Assembly (NCBI GenBank): GCA_030019205.1
Contig: JASEFH010000016.1
Span: 1-62,623, forward strand
Origin: Methanomicrobiales archaeon
Lineage (GTDB): Archaea > Halobacteriota > Methanomicrobia > Methanomicrobiales > JACTUA01
Direction: 5' to 3'
Length of the DNA stretch: 62,623 nt
This document shows positions 14,227-56,424 of the stretch, piece by piece. Every line of letters starts with the position of its first letter. Within the stretch, counting starts at the first letter, position 1. The translations under genes were made by a program, and so were the position numbers. The notes beneath the pieces were generated by a model. It worked only from the letters and a program-made list of their open reading frames with translations. It ran no database searches and was not told the DNA's origin.

Positions 14227-14463
14227 ATGGGAACGAAGACGACCGGCGCGGCGATGCCCGCGAACGCCGGAAGCCGTGGACGGGCGCCAGATCCGCGAGG
14301 TCCCGCAGAGTGCGCTTCGATGGATGCACCGCCACAGAGGAGGTTGTCAGCGATCGTCCGGGAGTTCGGACCCAACCCGGACCTCGCGGATGCGATCGAG
14401 AAGGCGTATCGGGAGATGCGGAACCTAAAACCGCGGGAGTCCGGTCCGCATGCCGACTCTTGA
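14227..14463 (+). CDS. Putative VapB-type antitoxin
   Basis: A 78-residue frame starting MGTKT, the N-terminus typical of archaeal VapB (DUF217-like) antitoxins. It ends with 'LSAIVREFGPNPDLADAIEK', a helix of the kind that binds the PIN toxin. It overlaps the toxin start by 14 bases, the usual toxin-antitoxin arrangement. The middle (about residues 6-40) is low-complexity and does not look like the family, so the gene may have suffered compensating frameshifts. An ATG at 14320 would give only the C-terminal 47 residues. Identity rests on position plus both ends, hence moderate confidence. Confidence 0.5.
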   Translation: MGTKTTGAAMPANAGSRGRAPDPRGPAECASMDAPPQRRLSAIVREFGPNPDLADAIEKAYREMRNLKPRESGPHADS

Positions 14464-14821
14464 CGCCTCCTTCATCGCCGCTCTCATCCGCCACGAGTCA
14501 GCGGCGCTGGCAACGCTGGCGGAACTCGAGGAGAGCGGCGCCCCCCTGGCGACGACGCCGATCGATCTGCTCGCACTGTTCCGGGGAGTCTATGCGACGG
14601 AGTCGATCGAGCAGAATCTCCGGGAGGCGAAGGCGATCCTCGAGCACCTGACCCTGCTGCCCATCGCCGAAGAGACCTGCGAGGTCTTCGGGAAGATCGC
14701 CGCATACCTCCGCGCGCAGGGGAGACCGATCGGGGATCTCGAGGGGGCGATCGCGGCAGCCGCTCTCTGCAGCGACGAACGCTTCTCGAGAGTGCCGGGT
14801 CTGACCGTGATGCCCTACTGA
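14450..14821 (+). CDS. PIN-domain ribonuclease (VapC-like toxin)
   Basis: A 123-residue PIN-domain protein. The first catalytic acid is in 'MPTLDASFIAALI', a later one in 'IGDLEGAIAAAAL', and 'RFSRVPGLTVMPY' is the common C-terminal PIN ending. The acid normally found in the second motif (E-L-x-x-G) is not at its usual place: the segment reads 'IDLLALFRGVYATE', so metal binding may use Asp or may be weakened. Expected to cleave RNA and to be restrained by the overlapping upstream gene. Confidence 0.75.
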   Translation: MPTLDASFIAALIRHESAALATLAELEESGAPLATTPIDLLALFRGVYATESIEQNLREAKAILEHLTLLPIAEETCEVFGKIAAYLRAQGRPIGDLEGAIAAAALCSDERFSRVPGLTVMPY

Positions 14822-15760: not shown

Positions 15761-16540
15761 TCAGGATCCGCCGGAGGGGCGGCGTGAACGGTTCTCCCAC
15801 TCCCCCATCTCGCGGATCACGCGCCAGCAGCGGTTCCTCTGGAGGACGATCCAGTACTTCCTGAGGTCCCGGTCCGCCTGCCGCAGATCGGGGCAGTAGG
15901 TCTCCACCGTCTGCCAGAAGAGGGGGGAGTGATCGGGGTGGATCAGGTGCGCCAGCTCGTGGACGACGACGTAATCCCTGAGCGGGTCCGGCAGCGCTGC
16001 CAGGGCGAGGTTGAAGGAGAGGTGCTTCCTCCCGGAGCAGCTGGCCCAGCGTGTCTTCTGCGTCCGCACCCCGATGCTCTCGTAGTCGACCCGCATCCGC
16101 TTCGCGGCGCGCTCCACCCGCCGGGCGAGGTCCGACTTGAGGTTCGCGATCAGGAACGTTCTGAGACCCTGCGGCGTGGAGTAGGTGAGCGCCCCATCGT
16201 CGGCGAACCCGCACCCGGTTCCCTGCCGCAGGAGGTAGTACCGCCCGTTCAGGAGCAGGAGATCCTCCGTGCCCAGCGTGTCTTCGGTGAGATCCGCCAG
16301 TTCTCTGCGCTTCTTCTCGATCCAGGCGGACTTGCGCCGGATGAACGGCTCCACGTCCACGCCCGGCGGGGCGGTGACCTGCAGCCGCCCGTCCGGCAGC
16401 ACCCGAAGCCGCATCACGGTGACCGCTCTCCGCAGAACCTCCACATCGGTCTCGTCCGGTCCCGGCACCATGGATTGCAGGAAGGTTTCTTCTCCTCCCG
16501 CATAAACCCCCACAGTCCGTCTCGCCGGCCGAAGACCCAC
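15761..16540 (-). CDS. YgjP/DUF45-family metallopeptidase
   Basis: A YgjP-type (M48-like) metal-dependent hydrolase of up to 259 residues. The motif 'VVHELAHLIHPDHSPLFW' gives HExxH and the third ligand His, and 'WASCSGRKHLSFN' is the family's other landmark. 'IRRKSAWIEKKRREL' is the helix usual before the catalytic part. The start is uncertain: GTG at 16540 gives the longest form, ATG at 16471 a 236-residue form that begins just before the conserved domain. In bacteria such genes often accompany restriction systems, and here it lies back to back with an ATPase-TOPRIM pair. Confidence 0.82.
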   Translation of the reverse strand: MGLRPARRTVGVYAGGEETFLQSMVPGPDETDVEVLRRAVTVMRLRVLPDGRLQVTAPPGVDVEPFIRRKSAWIEKKRRELADLTEDTLGTEDLLLLNGRYYLLRQGTGCGFADDGALTYSTPQGLRTFLIANLKSDLARRVERAAKRMRVDYESIGVRTQKTRWASCSGRKHLSFNLALAALPDPLRDYVVVHELAHLIHPDHSPLFWQTVETYCPDLRQADRDLRKYWIVLQRNRCWRVIREMGEWENRSRRPSGGS

Positions 16541-16610: not shown

Positions 16611-17846
16611 GTGCGAATCGACGGGATACGCGCCTCCAACTTCAAGACGTTCCGGGAACTGAACCTGGACCTCGGACCCTACGACGTGCTCATCGGCACG
16701 AACGCGGCGGGGAAGTCCAACTTCATCGACATCCTGAAGTTCGTGCGGGACATCGCCCTGCACGGGCTTGAAAACGCCGTCTCCCTCCAGGGAGGGGGGG
16801 AGTACATCCAGAACATCTGCGTGGAGTCCACGGAGCCGGTCGCGCTCGAGCTGCGGCTCCATCCGGTGCCCCGCCCGTTCGTCATGCGGTTCTGCGAGGA
16901 CCGGGAGAAGCACATCGAGGCCGCCGTGTCGTCCTGCACCTACCGCCTCGTCCTCGCCTTCGGACCGGGGCGGTTCTCCGTTGCGGACGAGAGGATCGCC
17001 GCCCGCTGCCGCATCGGAGCGGGCGGCGCGGCCCCGATCGAGGGGGAGGTCGTCCTGGGGCGGGACGGGAACGGTGCGGGGACCTACGCCGTGCATCCGC
17101 GGGACATTCAGGCGCGGATCGATTTCGCCTCCGTGAACCCCCGGCGTCTCGCGCCGCAGGAGTCGCTCCTGGAGTCGCCCTTCAGCATCCCCCTCTTCGC
17201 ACCGCTCCTCCACCGCCTCGCCGCCTTCTTCCGGGACATCGGCATCTACGACTTCGACCCGAAGATCTCCCGGAAGACCACGTCCCCCATGGGCATGGCG
17301 GAGCTCGAGCCCGACGGGAGCAACCTGGCGATCGTCCTGCGGCGCATCCTGGAGAATGCCGGGGAGCGGGAGATGCTGCTGCCGCTGATCAGCGAGATCC
17401 TGCCGTTCGTCGAGGACGTGAACGTGGAGAGGCTCGCGGGTGCGTCCCTGGTCGCGGGCTTAAAAGAGATCTACTGCGGGCGGAGGTTCACGCCGGCGAA
17501 CCTGCTCTCGGAGGGCACCATCAACCTCGCCGCCCTCATCATCGCCCTCTACTTCGAGAGAAAGTCCCCGATCGTCCTGGAGGAGCCGGTGCGCAACGTC
17601 CATCCTCACCTGGCGTCCCGGATCGTCGAGATGATCCGCGACGTGTCCGAACGGCTGGATAAGCAGGTGATCATCTCGACGCACAGCCCGGAGATCGTGA
17701 AGTACGCGGGCGCGGAGCGTCTGCTGCTGGTGAAGCGGGACCGGTTCGGGTTCTCCAGCATCATCCGCCCGCGGGAGAAGGAGGAGATCCGGGCCTTCCT
17801 GGTGAACATGGGCATCGAGGAGCTCTACGTCCAGAACCTGCTCTGA
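16611..17846 (+). CDS. AAA15/AAA21-type ATPase, OLD-like, paired with a TOPRIM protein
   Basis: A 411-residue SMC/ABC-like ATPase starting at GTG (MRIDGIRASNFKTFREL). Walker A 'GTNAAGKS' is at residues 29-36. A long middle insert (about 90-290) is followed by a signature-like 'LLSEGTINLAALIIAL', a Walker B region 'PIVLEEPVRNVHP', and 'VIISTHSPEIVKYAG' with the switch His. The usual EEPE of this group is EEPV here. Such ATPases act in OLD, Gabija and PARIS-type phage defence, normally with a TOPRIM nuclease. That partner follows one base after the stop. Defence function is inferred from family and context. Confidence 0.82.
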   Translation: MRIDGIRASNFKTFRELNLDLGPYDVLIGTNAAGKSNFIDILKFVRDIALHGLENAVSLQGGGEYIQNICVESTEPVALELRLHPVPRPFVMRFCEDREKHIEAAVSSCTYRLVLAFGPGRFSVADERIAARCRIGAGGAAPIEGEVVLGRDGNGAGTYAVHPRDIQARIDFASVNPRRLAPQESLLESPFSIPLFAPLLHRLAAFFRDIGIYDFDPKISRKTTSPMGMAELEPDGSNLAIVLRRILENAGEREMLLPLISEILPFVEDVNVERLAGASLVAGLKEIYCGRRFTPANLLSEGTINLAALIIALYFERKSPIVLEEPVRNVHPHLASRIVEMIRDVSERLDKQVIISTHSPEIVKYAGAERLLLVKRDRFGFSSIIRPREKEEIRAFLVNMGIEELYVQNLL

Positions 17847-17847
17847 C

Positions 17848-18372
17848 ATGCCATCCATCCTCTTCTTCCTGGAAGGGAACGACGACGAACGGTTCTTTGC
17901 GCGGGTGATCGCCCCGCCCCTGGAGGACCGGAACTGCACCGTCCGCATCTGGAAGTACGCGCGGGAGAAGAGGAAGCGCACCATCCAGCTGCTCAAGTCG
18001 GTGCAGGGCGCCGGCATGGCGTACGTCTTTGTGCGGGACATCGACGATGCACCGTCCGTTCGCGCCAAGAAGGAGGAGATGGTGCGCTGCTTCGAGGTGC
18101 TGACGGGCGAAGACATCGCCGTGGTCGTCATGGAGATCGAGAGCTGGTACCTGGCCGGGGCGAACGCTGCGTTCCTGAGCAGGATCGGCGCCGATGGCAT
18201 CTGGAACACCGACCATATCACCAAAGAGCAGTTCAACCAGCTGATCCCCCGCCCGATGTCCCGCATCGTCTTCATGCAGGAGATCCTCAAGCACTTCGAT
18301 GTCGAGGTCGCGAAGAAGAGGAACGCATCGTTCCGCTACTTCATGCACCGCTGGATCGAGAAGGGGGACTGA
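17848..18372 (+). CDS. TOPRIM-like (DUF4276/DUF4435-type) putative nuclease
   Basis: A 174-residue protein with the acidic constellation of a TOPRIM fold: Glu9 in 'FLEGNDDERFF', Asp64/Asp66/Asp67 in 'FVRDIDDAP', and Glu96/Glu98 in 'MEIESWYLAG'. These probably bind Mg2+. The 'EIESWYLAG' block is characteristic of DUF4276-like proteins that accompany AAA15 ATPases. Its ATG starts one base after the ATPase stop, so the two are co-translated and probably form a complex. It could cut phage or host nucleic acid, such as tRNA, on infection. The substrate is unknown. Confidence 0.75.
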   Translation: MPSILFFLEGNDDERFFARVIAPPLEDRNCTVRIWKYAREKRKRTIQLLKSVQGAGMAYVFVRDIDDAPSVRAKKEEMVRCFEVLTGEDIAVVVMEIESWYLAGANAAFLSRIGADGIWNTDHITKEQFNQLIPRPMSRIVFMQEILKHFDVEVAKKRNASFRYFMHRWIEKGD

Positions 18373-18548: not shown

Positions 18549-19142
18549 TCACCTCCTCCGGGTGAAGAGGTGCCGCAGGGTGAGGACCGGCATGGCCATC
18601 CATCCCTGTCCCTTCTGCGGGAAGATGCCATCGCTCACCTGCTTCACGCTCTCGATCGTGTAGAAGGCCTGCGGGTTGCACCTCTCGATAGCGGCCGCAA
18701 CCGCCCTCACATCGTGGCGATCCACCACCGTGAGGACGATCTGAACATCGCCATAGGCGCCCCGTCCGGGCATCCGGGTGAATCCGAGTCCTGCGCCTTT
18801 CAGATATTCCAGGAGCGGAGCGGCATCCTCCCGCAGCACGATGCGGATGATCACCCTGCCGATCGCCAGGCGCTCTTCGATGGTTATCCCCGCGCATATT
18901 CCAAGGGAGAAACCGAACCCGTAGGCGAGGAAGTAGAGATAATTATTCAGATTCTGCAGGATCTGGCCGATGGCCAGCAGCCAGATGAGCACCTGGAAAA
19001 AACCGATGGCAATGGAAGGATATTTGAGCCCCCGCGTGATGAAAATGACACGGACCGTGCTGAAGCACACTTCCGTCAGGATCGCAAGGAAGATGAGCGC
19101 GGGCATCACCACCCAGGGCAGAAACCAGGACTGCAGGGGCAT
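18549..19142 (-). CDS. UPF0316/DUF2179 membrane protein (paralogue 1)
   Basis: About 197 residues: three N-terminal membrane helices with 'EVCFSTVRVIFITRGLKYPS' and 'GFFQVLIWLLAIGQILQNLN', then a soluble DUF2179 domain with 'ITIEERLAIG' and 'GDVQIVLTVVDRHDVRAV'. I chose the ATG at 19142 because a GAGGTG ribosome-binding site stands about nine bases upstream; a GTG at 19160 is possible. DUF2179 folds resemble ACT-like or PII-like ligand sensors, so a ligand-regulated membrane role is plausible. Next to a homologue at 19294-19896. Confidence 0.85.
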   Translation of the reverse strand: MPLQSWFLPWVVMPALIFLAILTEVCFSTVRVIFITRGLKYPSIAIGFFQVLIWLLAIGQILQNLNNYLYFLAYGFGFSLGICAGITIEERLAIGRVIIRIVLREDAAPLLEYLKGAGLGFTRMPGRGAYGDVQIVLTVVDRHDVRAVAAAIERCNPQAFYTIESVKQVSDGIFPQKGQGWMAMPVLTLRHLFTRRR

Positions 19143-19293
19143 CTCCACGGGACACCTCACGAATACAGGGGGAAATATCCACCCGAAAGGGGATAACCTG
19201 CACGAAACAGGTGCATATACGCGAGTACCTGTTCAGAGGGATATTTCGCGGGCATAATGCAGGTATTGGCCTGGCGGGGGATTGCAGGGGACC

Positions 19294-19896
19294 CTACTTC
19301 CCCTTGGAGATCTGCCGGAACCAGGGGAGATGGCTTCTCAGGTAGCCCGGCTCTTTCACCGGGAAGACCCCCTCGTTCACGTGTCGCACGTCCTCGATGG
19401 AGTAGAAGGCGTGGGGGTTGAACTGCTGTATCTTCTCCACCACGCGCGGGATGTCCTGGCGGCCGATCACCGAGAAGATGATCTTCACCTTCCCGTAGGC
19501 GCCGTCCCCGTCGATGGTGGTCACCCCGTAGTGCTCTTTTTTCAGGAAGTCCACCAGCGGTTCGGCGCTGTTCTTCGTGATGATCCGCAGCACGACCGTG
19601 CCGATGGAGAGGCGGTCCTCGATCGTCATGCCGACGAAGTTGCCCATCGCGAATCCGCCCGCGTAGGCGATGTAGGAGAGGGGGTTGTCCAGGTTCCGCA
19701 TGATCTGGCCGATCGCCATCAGCCAGATGGAGATCTCGAAGAACCCCAGGATGGGCGCCAGCGTGCGGAGGCCCCGGGAGACGAAGATGATCCGGATCGT
19801 CCCCATGCTCACGTCGACGATCCGCGCGCAGAAGATGAGGAGAGGCAGGATCACCCACGCGAACAGGTCAGAGTGTACAACGAACGAGTAATCCAC
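19294..19896 (-). CDS. UPF0316/DUF2179 membrane protein (paralogue 2)
   Basis: A 200-residue homologue of the neighbouring gene, with 'ARIVDVSMGTIRIIFVSRGL', 'GFFEISIWLMAIGQIMRNLD' and the DUF2179 segment 'MTIEDRLSIGTVVLRII'. The start codon is GTG, with a GGAGG ribosome-binding site about ten bases upstream (19906-19911). Tandem UPF0316 genes suggest hetero-oligomers. The biochemical role is unknown. Confidence 0.87.
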   Translation of the reverse strand: MDYSFVVHSDLFAWVILPLLIFCARIVDVSMGTIRIIFVSRGLRTLAPILGFFEISIWLMAIGQIMRNLDNPLSYIAYAGGFAMGNFVGMTIEDRLSIGTVVLRIITKNSAEPLVDFLKKEHYGVTTIDGDGAYGKVKIIFSVIGRQDIPRVVEKIQQFNPHAFYSIEDVRHVNEGVFPVKEPGYLRSHLPWFRQISKGK

Positions 19897-20129: not shown

Positions 20130-21247
20130 AGCAGCCCTCGATGGATCTGCTGTTCCGGGATGCGAACGCGCCCACATCGGAGGTGACAGTGACCATCGCA
20201 CCAATCGTTGCAGATGCGGGTGCCGATCCGTGGATGGCGGCGATGGCAATGGCGAACTCACCGCGTGCCAGGATGTTCAGCCCGATCTCCCTGCCTGCAA
20301 AGGGGGTATGGTGACGTCGAAATTCTCATCAAGAGCCCGTGCAGGGCTCCCGGGTGTTTCTCCGGGGAAGGGCCTCTCTCCTCCGGCCCCTTCGTGCGAC
20401 AGAGAGCATCCTGCCCGGCATTCCCGCTCCGATGCGGGCCTGTCGCACGATTCCCCTCACCGAGGGGAGGGGTGAATGCGGATCATCGATGGATCATCCG
20501 CGGGATAGATGGAAAATCCGCCGGGGAGCTTTGCTGCAGAGCCCGGAGATGTGTCCTGCCAGGGGCAATTGCCCTCTGCGGGATCCCGGGGTTCGCCGTC
20601 GAGAGGGCGGATCCGGGGATCAGGACAAGAGCCGCCTCCGGAATGCCAGGACAGGCCGAGACGGCGATCGCTCCCAGCACCGGGCCGAATGCCCGGAGAA
20701 CGGGCACCTCAACGAACCTCTGCAGAGCGGCGATCATGCGGACCCGGACGACGCTGAGGAGGGCCAGCAGGGCGCCCATTTTGAGGAGGATGAAGAGAGG
20801 GGCCTGCAGCCCGGAAGAGACGACTCAGATCCTCGAAGATCAGCAGCCGGATCATCGTCTCGGACTCCGGGGAGGTCAGCCTGCAGTACTCGGTGAGCCC
20901 GGCGGCTGCCGGGGCAGGGCTGGTATCGAAGAACGCAGAACCGACGACGAACGCCTCGACAGGGTTGAAGCCCGGCGCCAGCGCTCCAGAGAATCCGACG
21001 GCCATGTTGACGTCGAGGTCGAGGAGTCCGCTGACAGGGAAGCCGGATCCCCGGGAGAGGAACCGCGGCAGCCTGAACTCCGGTCCGGAGCAGAGCAGCA
21101 GGAAGATCAGGCCCGGGTACGGGGGGAGGAGGCTCTCCTGGGAACAGGGAATGCCGGAGTTCCCGATATATGCCCCGGCCAGGATGGAGCGCGGCACGGG
21201 GGGACCGGCAGATGCTTCGAGAGGATCGCAAGAGCGACGCTCTCCAT
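20130..21247 (-). pseudogene. Decayed Kef/KhtU-type cation:proton antiporter
   Basis: Pieces of one CPA2 antiporter occur in order on the minus strand in changing frames. First is 'MESVALAILSKHLPV' from an ATG at 21247, then 'SILAGAYIGNSGIP', 'PGLIFLLLCSG' and 'AGLTEYCRLTSPESETMIRL' followed by a LLIFEDL segment. Next come 'FILLKMGALLALLSVV' and 'AFGPVLGAIAVSACPGIPEA'. Last, near 20240-20290, is 'EIGLNILARGEFAIAIAAI', the family's conserved late segment. No single frame covers more than a third of the gene. The spacing matches an intact protein of about 370-390 residues. The order and the gene just upstream identify a former K+/H+ efflux operon. Confidence 0.75.
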
Positions 21248-21683
21248 CCAGGTCCCGAGTAGCTGGCTCTCAAAGTTCTTCAGCTGTTCGGGCTCCCCGA
21301 TGGCCGCGACGACCTCCCCTTCTGCAAAGGCGAACGACGCCGAGGGACCGATGACATTCTCGTTCTTGCGGGGGACCGCAACGATGGTGGCGCCCGTCTG
21401 TGTGCGGATCGGAGTTCTGCGATGGATGTTGCGGCGCGTTTGCGGGGGTGAGGCAGGTCCGGAGATCGGCAAGAGCAGAGAAGGCGATCCCGGCTGCTTC
21501 TTTTTCAGCCTCGATGATGGCGCCGGTGAGGATGCTGCCCTGCCGCCGCGGGAGAGGAGCGCCCTTTCTCGATGAGGCGGATCTGGTTGCGCCCCGACTT
21601 TCAGAAAGACGATCGAACGCCATCGCCCGCTCCGTATCGGACTTCGTCCCGATGCCCGGAAGATCCACCGATCGGGCATCCAT
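21248..21683 (-). pseudogene. Decayed KhtT-like regulatory subunit (RCK_C/TrkA-C domain)
   Basis: From about 21683 the reading 'MDARSVDLPGIGTKSDTER' matches the N-terminal domain of KhtT-type antiporter regulators. In the same frame 'GSILTGAIIEAEKEAAGIAF' continues it. A frameshift near 21415 leads to an excellent RCK_C domain, 'IRTQTGATIVAVPRKNENVI' then 'EGEVVAAIGEPEQLKNFE', ending next to the antiporter start at 21247. In living systems this subunit gates the antiporter in response to pH or nucleotides. Between the two good segments the reading is garbled. Confidence 0.75.
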
Positions 21684-21887
21684 GCCAGAAGCGGATCCAG
21701 AAATGCTGTTCGAGCGTATTCGCGCTCCTTCTGGAACCGGACGCACCGGTGGGCCGGCGGGGCGTACGCCGCCAGCGCGCCTGCGTGCCCTGCCGCTGCA
21801 GCAGAGCAGGATGCCGGAAAGACCCACATCCGGCAGGGAATCTATCGTCAGCTATTAAATCAGAGGGAGATGACAGTACTCTTAAGA

Positions 21888-55488: not shown

Positions 55489-56424
55489 ATGGGAAAACGG
55501 ACACGACTCGTTCCATCGGCTCGACCATTTCTCAAGTGGGCTGGAGGCAAAACCCAGCTGCTGAACGAGCTCACCCGACGTCTGCCAGGAGAATTGACAG
55601 AAGGAGAAATTACGAAATATGTCGAGCCATTTGTTGGCGGAGGGGCGTTTTTCTTCTATCTTAACCAGAGATTTTCGTTTGAACAGTGTTACATCTGCGA
55701 TATCAATGAAGAACTGGTCCTCTCCTATCGTGTGATTCAACGCTCCGTAAATAGATTAATCTCTGAACTGAAAACGCTTGAGTCAGACTATCTTTCCCGG
55801 AGTGAGAAGGAGAGGGAGTCGCTCTATTATGAGATCCGTGATGCATTCAATCGGAAACGATCGGAGATCGACTTCGAGACATACAGCTCAGAATGGATCG
55901 AACGTGCAGCCCAGATTATCTTCTTGAATCGCACCTGTTATAACGGCCTGTTTCGTGTAAACCGAAGAGGAGAATTCAACGTCCCATTCGGAAGGTACAA
56001 AAATCCGGAAATTTTGAATGAAGATAATCTAAAAGGCGTCTCGGAGTTGCTGAAAACAACGCAGATCCTGCTGGGCGATTTCACCCGGTGTCGAAAATAT
56101 GTGGATGATCGTACATTTGTATATTTTGACCCACCTTACCGTCCGCTCAATCCGACTTCATCGTTTACCTCGTATTCAAAGAATGGATTTCGCGAAGAAG
56201 ATCAGGTGCGTCTTGCCAAGTTTTTCCGGGAACTTGACGAAAAGGGCGCAAAAATTATGCTGAGCAATTCAGATCCAAAAAACGAGAATCTCGACGACTC
56301 ATTTTTCGATGATCTCTTCTCTGATTATTATATCGAGCGTGTTCCTGCAAAGCGTATGATCAATTGCAACGGCGCCCGTCGAGGGGATATTAACGAATTA
56401 ATTATTACTAACTATCGCATATAG
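55489..56424 (+). CDS. Dam/DpnM-type DNA adenine-N6 methyltransferase
   Basis: A 311-residue type II methyltransferase of the D12 (Dam) class. SAM motif 'FLKWAGGKTQLLNEL' is near residue 14, 'YVEPFVGGGAFFF' near 43, 'IIFLNRTCYNGLFRVN' near 145, and catalytic DPPY at residues 214-217 followed by 'TSSFTSYSKNGF'. Dam-class enzymes usually methylate A in GATC or a related short site. AT-rich compared with the genes to its left, so probably acquired. A damaged gene follows directly and may be what is left of its restriction partner. Confidence 0.9.
   Translation: MGKRTRLVPSARPFLKWAGGKTQLLNELTRRLPGELTEGEITKYVEPFVGGGAFFFYLNQRFSFEQCYICDINEELVLSYRVIQRSVNRLISELKTLESDYLSRSEKERESLYYEIRDAFNRKRSEIDFETYSSEWIERAAQIIFLNRTCYNGLFRVNRRGEFNVPFGRYKNPEILNEDNLKGVSELLKTTQILLGDFTRCRKYVDDRTFVYFDPPYRPLNPTSSFTSYSKNGFREEDQVRLAKFFRELDEKGAKIMLSNSDPKNENLDDSFFDDLFSDYYIERVPAKRMINCNGARRGDINELIITNYRI

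Follow-up and report, generated by a model that had tools for sequence, protein, structure and literature searches.

An ATPase-TOPRIM gene pair under long vertical inheritance in Methanomicrobiales and its possible role in chromosome maintenance

Adjacent genes for an ATPase and a TOPRIM protein are usually taken for a defence system. What OLD, PARIS and Gabija have in common is a two-metal TOPRIM nuclease that is positioned and gated by an oligomeric ABC-type ATPase. A pair of this kind lies in a contig of a Methanomicrobiales archaeon (JASEFH010000016.1; all 62,623 nucleotides were analysed and are called the window below), and the initial annotation put it forward as a possible undescribed variant of ATPase-nuclease immunity. 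The question raised by this locus is whether the pair protects its host against invaders or serves the cell itself. A clade of such pairs that is vertical and syntenic, and strongly constrained by purifying selection throughout an order, is a direct test case of whether modules like these serve the cell in archaea as well.

The two proteins and their arrangement

The upstream gene encodes a protein (Table 1) that matches the Pfam families AAA_21 (6.4e-24) and AAA_15 (3.8e-16) and carries the complete ABC-type set of Walker A, signature, Walker B and H-loop that is expected of an OLD family ATPase, which bears out its first assignment to the OLD/AAA15 type. These catalytic motifs are invariant or almost so across relatives, and the AlphaFold model of the protein (pLDDT 84) retrieves PtuA, SMC heads, Rad50, OLD and GajA in Foldseek. 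The acidic motif had been described as an altered form, EEPV, but E324-E325-P326 is the same in 38 of 38 ATPases and just the fourth residue varies (V, G, A or E), which rules out an altered motif or a changed catalysis on this ground.

The small downstream protein was recognized by its fold: Pfam gave no meaningful match for the window's own protein, a search of solved structures by sequence returned nothing useful, and the fold search alone worked. The AlphaFold model, built from 11 sequences (pLDDT 83), has as its top PDB match the OLD TOPRIM domain of B. pseudomallei (6nk8), with a modest score (E 1.5e-3, prob 0.99, TM 0.46). This match agrees with the residues E9, D64 and D66, which are unchanged in all 40 relatives, so that both the fold and the E and DxD metal-binding residues of an OLD-like TOPRIM nuclease are present in the model and the sequence. 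The protein is thus very probably a TOPRIM nuclease, in line with its first description. The further suggestion that it is DUF4276-like holds in part: PF14103 is weakly matched by 4 of 11 relatives (best 8.5e-5), but the window protein has no match and the gathering score is not reached, and membership was rejected. OLD-like_TOPRIM is matched by 2 of the 11 relatives. In a viral fold library no match was significant, and only a weak RloB-like phage protein appeared. Stops inside some TOPRIM matches were considered as signs of pseudogenes, a reading that was dropped as the match there runs to its natural end.

A single base separates the ATPase stop from the TOPRIM start, which confirms the spacing first reported (17846 vs 17848). 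Relatives keep the gene order, with the ATPase directly upstream of the TOPRIM gene in essentially all complete loci and an intergenic gap of -4 to +11 bases, and in the loci examined the genes are separate, without fusion. The PARIS/OLD-like architecture of the initial annotation, separate adjacent ATPase and TOPRIM genes, therefore stands. Dozens of loci hold the two adjacent frames, conserved and subject to purifying selection, which places the pair far beyond chance, and the best explanation is that the two genes form one operon-like unit of a split OLD-like or HEC-01-like kind.

The YgjP-like gene had been noted as a frequent companion of restriction or defence genes. It does lie back to back with the pair, and of the six loci read in families f1 (the window's family) and f2, five have it in divergent orientation to the pair; the adjacency is absent in the loci read outside these two families. 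Because of this restriction the gene is not evidence for defence, and its use as a defence marker was rejected; it is probably outside the ATPase-TOPRIM unit. Other genes in the vicinity are a PIN-domain-like protein, which could be the toxin of a toxin-antitoxin system, and, immediately downstream of the ATPase-TOPRIM genes, two DUF5698/DUF2179 paralogues in tandem.

Table 1. Positions, strands and key residues of the pair and of other features in the window
Feature	Position	Strand	Remarks
PIN-domain-like protein	14450-14821	+	slightly below Pfam cut-off
YgjP-like metallopeptidase (HELAH)	15761..16540	-	PF01863, 1e-44
ABC/OLD-type (AAA_21/AAA_15) ATPase	16611..17846	+	411 aa, GTG start
ATPase Walker A	G29-x-N-A-x-G-K35		
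ATPase ABC signature	S300-x-G302-T		
ATPase Walker B/acidic	E324-E325-P326		
ATPase H-loop residue	H358		
Small TOPRIM nuclease (very probable)	17848..18372	+	174 aa, ATG start
Residues of 174-aa protein	E9, D64-x-D66, E96-I-E98-S-W-Y		
DUF5698/DUF2179 paralogue	18549-19160	-	
DUF5698/DUF2179 paralogue	19294-19896	-	
Kef-type antiporter region	20709-21829	-	shorter frames, e.g. 162 aa at 20709-21197
Adenine DNA methyltransferase with DPPY	55489-56424	+	orphan/type II

Profile matches, distribution and neighbourhoods

Profile searches with both proteins gave HEC-01 as the best match. The best PADLOC model for the ATPase is HEC-01A (5.3e-42), in keeping with the ATPase component of that system, and HEC-01B matches the window's TOPRIM protein weakly (2.5e-5, about 23 bits) and all 11 of its relatives (best 2.3e-9). 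Of the models named in the initial annotation, DUF4276 and those of PARIS are weaker or below threshold. AriA matches the ATPase at 2e-23, ranked under HEC-01A, and AriB is matched by only 3 of the 11 TOPRIM relatives; since AriA and AriB are not the best match, membership in PARIS (class 4 OLD) was rejected. Membership in MADS3 is ruled out by the MAD3 score of the ATPase (117 bits, far under the NF047739 cut-off of 420 bits), and mad4 is matched by 4 of the 11 TOPRIM relatives. The mad3 matches among neighbours of the focal loci and among other proteins of the window were read as cross-matches, because in the window their count equals that of the ABC transporter ATPases.

A search with the TOPRIM protein as query found matches in 81 of 199 Methanomicrobiales genomes, nearly all of them in single copy, and in a handful of genomes of the phylum outside this order. 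Matches occur in 45 of 59 good genomes of the best-sampled family (the relic in G068 counted in); some genera are positive throughout (9/9, 4/4, 3/3 and 3/3), others are mixed (20/23 and 2/5 good genomes), and one is negative (0/7). Homologues of the pair were also searched in the viral contigs of IMG/VR, the phages of INPHARED and the plasmids of PLSDB, and none was found there. The only bacterial locus, L012, comes from a Syntrophales MAG and has a near-basal place in the focal clade. Syntrophales are syntrophic partners of methanogens, and for this relative of the pair (L012:6741-8525) transfer and misbinning are both possible.

Three neighbourhoods of the pair recur, and they are core-type. 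In one of them, found in genera g13 and g15 of family f5 and in genus g11 of family f6, the pair lies between TspO and FprA, the name used here for a flavodiiron-type ODP/metallo-beta-lactamase protein, and in f5 the FprA gene is followed by TrkH, NifH-like and nitrogenase-like genes. FprA is downstream of the pair in all 13 g15 loci read and also adjoins it in g30, and TspO lies about 48-87 bp 5' of the ATPase in nine loci of two families (L058, L059, L111, L119-L121, L124, L125 and L134). Both neighbours are oxygen-related, a weak hint of oxidative stress. The upstream TspO has the look of an operon-like membrane partner and recalls the membrane gene beside cran1. Another neighbourhood, with an ABC-2 transporter upstream and homoserine dehydrogenase and its neighbours downstream, occurs in f5 (g10, g17, g23, g27, g37 and part of g31). 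The remaining one is an upstream block common to f1, f2 and f3, with JAB-like and nucleotidyltransferase-like genes as read from the sequences, and in several loci of these families a Kef-type antiporter gene lies 3' of the pair. In relatives this antiporter (cluster c12) is encoded by a single frame of some 370 aa; the split form in the window is perhaps a frameshift or a pseudogene.

Among 118 pooled neighbours of the focal loci, two defence matches were traced, a Cas3 in locus L117 (genome G260) and, in L115 (G261), a type IIG enzyme; both loci belong to families outside Methanomicrobiales. The same pool holds one Cmr3-like and a second mad2-like match whose loci were not assigned; an L117 protein guessed as Cmr3-like has no PDB match. 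The window's clear placeable defence-type match, the orphan adenine methyltransferase, is about 37 kb from the pair. The link to defence islands suspected at first is thus not supported within the order, where the focal loci carry core genes and are not embedded in or near defence loci as would be expected of HEC-01.

Further HEC-01A-like ATPases occur in Methanomicrobiales. The 38 focal ATPases form one clade apart from the 21 others of the order (support 100/100, in 100% of bootstrap trees), in a tree with midpoint rooting and long branches. The 121 neighbour proteins of the other copies include BrxL (3), PglZ (3), PglX (2) and type IIG enzymes (2), and strong HEC-01B partners, reaching 2e-78, lie beside them. 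These separate HEC-01 loci (L135-L154) have BREX and type IIG genes in their pooled neighbours.

Vertical inheritance and loss of the pair

The pair has long been inherited vertically, and its places on the chromosome are stable. Trees of the pair and of RpoB for 30 genomes from five families have 16 of 27 splits in common, and none of the pair-tree splits with support of at least 95 is contradicted by a supported split of RpoB. The distance matrices of the pair and of RpoB are correlated with a Mantel r of 0.81, which is reached in 0 of 5000 permutations. The dS of the pair is within the range of the dS of its flanking genes, as is expected if the pair and its flanks travelled together; this result rests on the closer genome pairs, because dS is saturated in many wider comparisons. 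The dN/dS of the pair is mostly 0.05-0.2, similar to that of its metabolic neighbours, and the TOPRIM gene diverges faster than the ATPase gene in some clades. Inside the order the pair is largely conserved at its locus in relatives and away from defence islands, an outcome that the initial annotation had itself set against its immunity proposal.

It is also evident that the pair can be lost. It is gone from G017, G132, G011, G196 and G201, where the FprA neighbourhood is intact, and at the empty sites of G017 and G132 the distance between TspO and FprA (276-289 bp) matches the spacer between TOPRIM and FprA at filled sites (about 260-296 bp). Out-of-frame remnants of both genes lie beside FprA in G068, and in G112 and G188 the ATPase is damaged and the TOPRIM frame intact, although draft assemblies may contain errors. 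The clean and the decayed sites show that the unit is dispensable yet long retained, and in G017 the pair is non-essential because it is missing from this complete genome. Clean natural loss inside one genus offers ready-made comparisons.

Possible functions and comparison with known systems

Our favoured reading, to which we give a chance only just short of even, is that the pair is a resident, non-essential ATPase-gated TOPRIM nuclease of chromosome maintenance and not a mobile anti-phage system; vertically inherited immunity ranks close behind as the main rival. The constant gene pairing and the invariance of both sets of catalytic residues support a joint machine. In an ATP-dependent manner the ATPase subunits would join into dimers or larger complexes, bind DNA or nucleoprotein and hold the small TOPRIM protein, and two-metal cleavage or nicking would be permitted solely in the right state of ATP and substrate. 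The substrate may be DNA or RNA, and the task of the pair may be to nick or cut DNA where it is damaged or stalled. The maintenance role is placed first because of the analogy with Cran1. Against it stand the clean loss in several species, the decay in G068 and the broken ATPase in G112 and G188, which make the pair not essential, unlike Cran1. Moreover, the catalogued systems closest to it are candidates for defence, one homologue outside the order adjoins Cas3 and another a type IIG restriction enzyme, and no partner gene is conserved in all clades and points to a repair pathway.

The main rival is innate immunity that is vertically inherited and fixed on the chromosome in Methanomicrobiales, an appreciable possibility that we put somewhat under an even chance. 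The ATPase would then sense a viral or plasmid trigger and free or activate the TOPRIM protein to cut tRNA or DNA in a PARIS- or HEC-01-like manner, a mechanism that we hold possible to the same degree. The closest profiles are those of defence candidates (HEC-01A and AriA, and HEC-01B in 11/11 relatives), recurrent clean loss and decay into pseudogenes would suit a defence that can be dispensed with, the TOPRIM protein outpaces the ATPase in some clades, and AriB of PARIS is a two-metal tRNase (PMC12409363). Against it, neither defence neighbours inside the order nor any sign of mobility could be traced, and near-fixation in several genera, the RpoB-congruent tree and a dN/dS like that of metabolic neighbours also count against this reading; an intact TOPRIM frame beside a broken ATPase in two genomes is contrary to a lethal effector restrained by the ATPase. 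That same combination speaks against a toxin-antitoxin-like pair of TOPRIM toxin and ATPase antitoxin, which is very improbable: the genes overlap or adjoin, and AriA restrains AriB in PARIS (PMC12409363), but inheritance is core-like and vertical and not that of addictive mobility, and the ATPase retains all its catalytic motifs. As for an anti-phage module that is mobile and part of a defence island, the PARIS/OLD-like architecture and the related HEC-01 copies of the order that adjoin BREX and restriction genes would suit it; those copies, however, are a separate clade, whereas the focal clade is syntenic, vertical and without a match in the searched virus, phage and plasmid databases, and the window's placeable defence match is far off. 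This reading is largely refuted and we consider it most unlikely. Of the variant first proposed, the ATPase-nuclease pair itself stands; synteny and the RpoB-congruent tree oppose its mobile, defence-island part, and immunity as such stays a near rival. The chromosome-maintenance reading keeps its first place.

Among catalogued systems the pair is filed as a split ATPase-TOPRIM variant of HEC-01-like architecture, for which a defence role of the HEC-01 type is only a candidate. With HEC-01, itself a PADLOC candidate, it shares an adjacent AAA_21-type ATPase and small TOPRIM-like protein and its best profile matches, but it differs in the weak nuclease score, an ATPase clade of its own and a core-like vertical locus. 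With PARIS (AriA-AriB, class 4 OLD) it shares adjacent separate genes and the two-metal TOPRIM residues, yet its matches are weaker and it behaves differently in genomes; class 4 OLD has been reported as restricted to bacteria (PMC12796447). PARIS proper also has an AriA hexamer that holds AriB back, with tRNA cut upon a phage trigger. MAD3 and MAD4 of MADS are alike in profile matches to both proteins, and no other MADS genes were seen beside the focal pair. These likenesses carry a warning that profile-based defence finders, through matches to HEC-01A or AriA, may count core genes as immunity.

The comparison with Cran1 is of another kind. Cran1 is the class 5 archaeal OLD ATPase-nickase of Sulfolobales. 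It was singled out for order-wide vertical inheritance, and its reported role is in the cell cycle, with apparently no action on viruses (PMC12796447). Like Cran1, the focal pair is an archaeal OLD-type ATPase with TOPRIM, its clade lies largely in one order, its tree tracks the species tree and it stands outside defence islands; it thus has the vertical inheritance in one archaeal order of class 5 OLD, but not the fused protein or the essentiality, since Cran1 unites both domains in a single protein and seems to be essential, whereas the focal ATPase and TOPRIM are two genes and are lost at times. It is conceivable, at less than even odds, that, after Cran1 and independently of it, a further archaeal lineage has turned an OLD-type ATPase-TOPRIM system into a chromosomal maintenance enzyme, here split into two genes and present in most families of the order.
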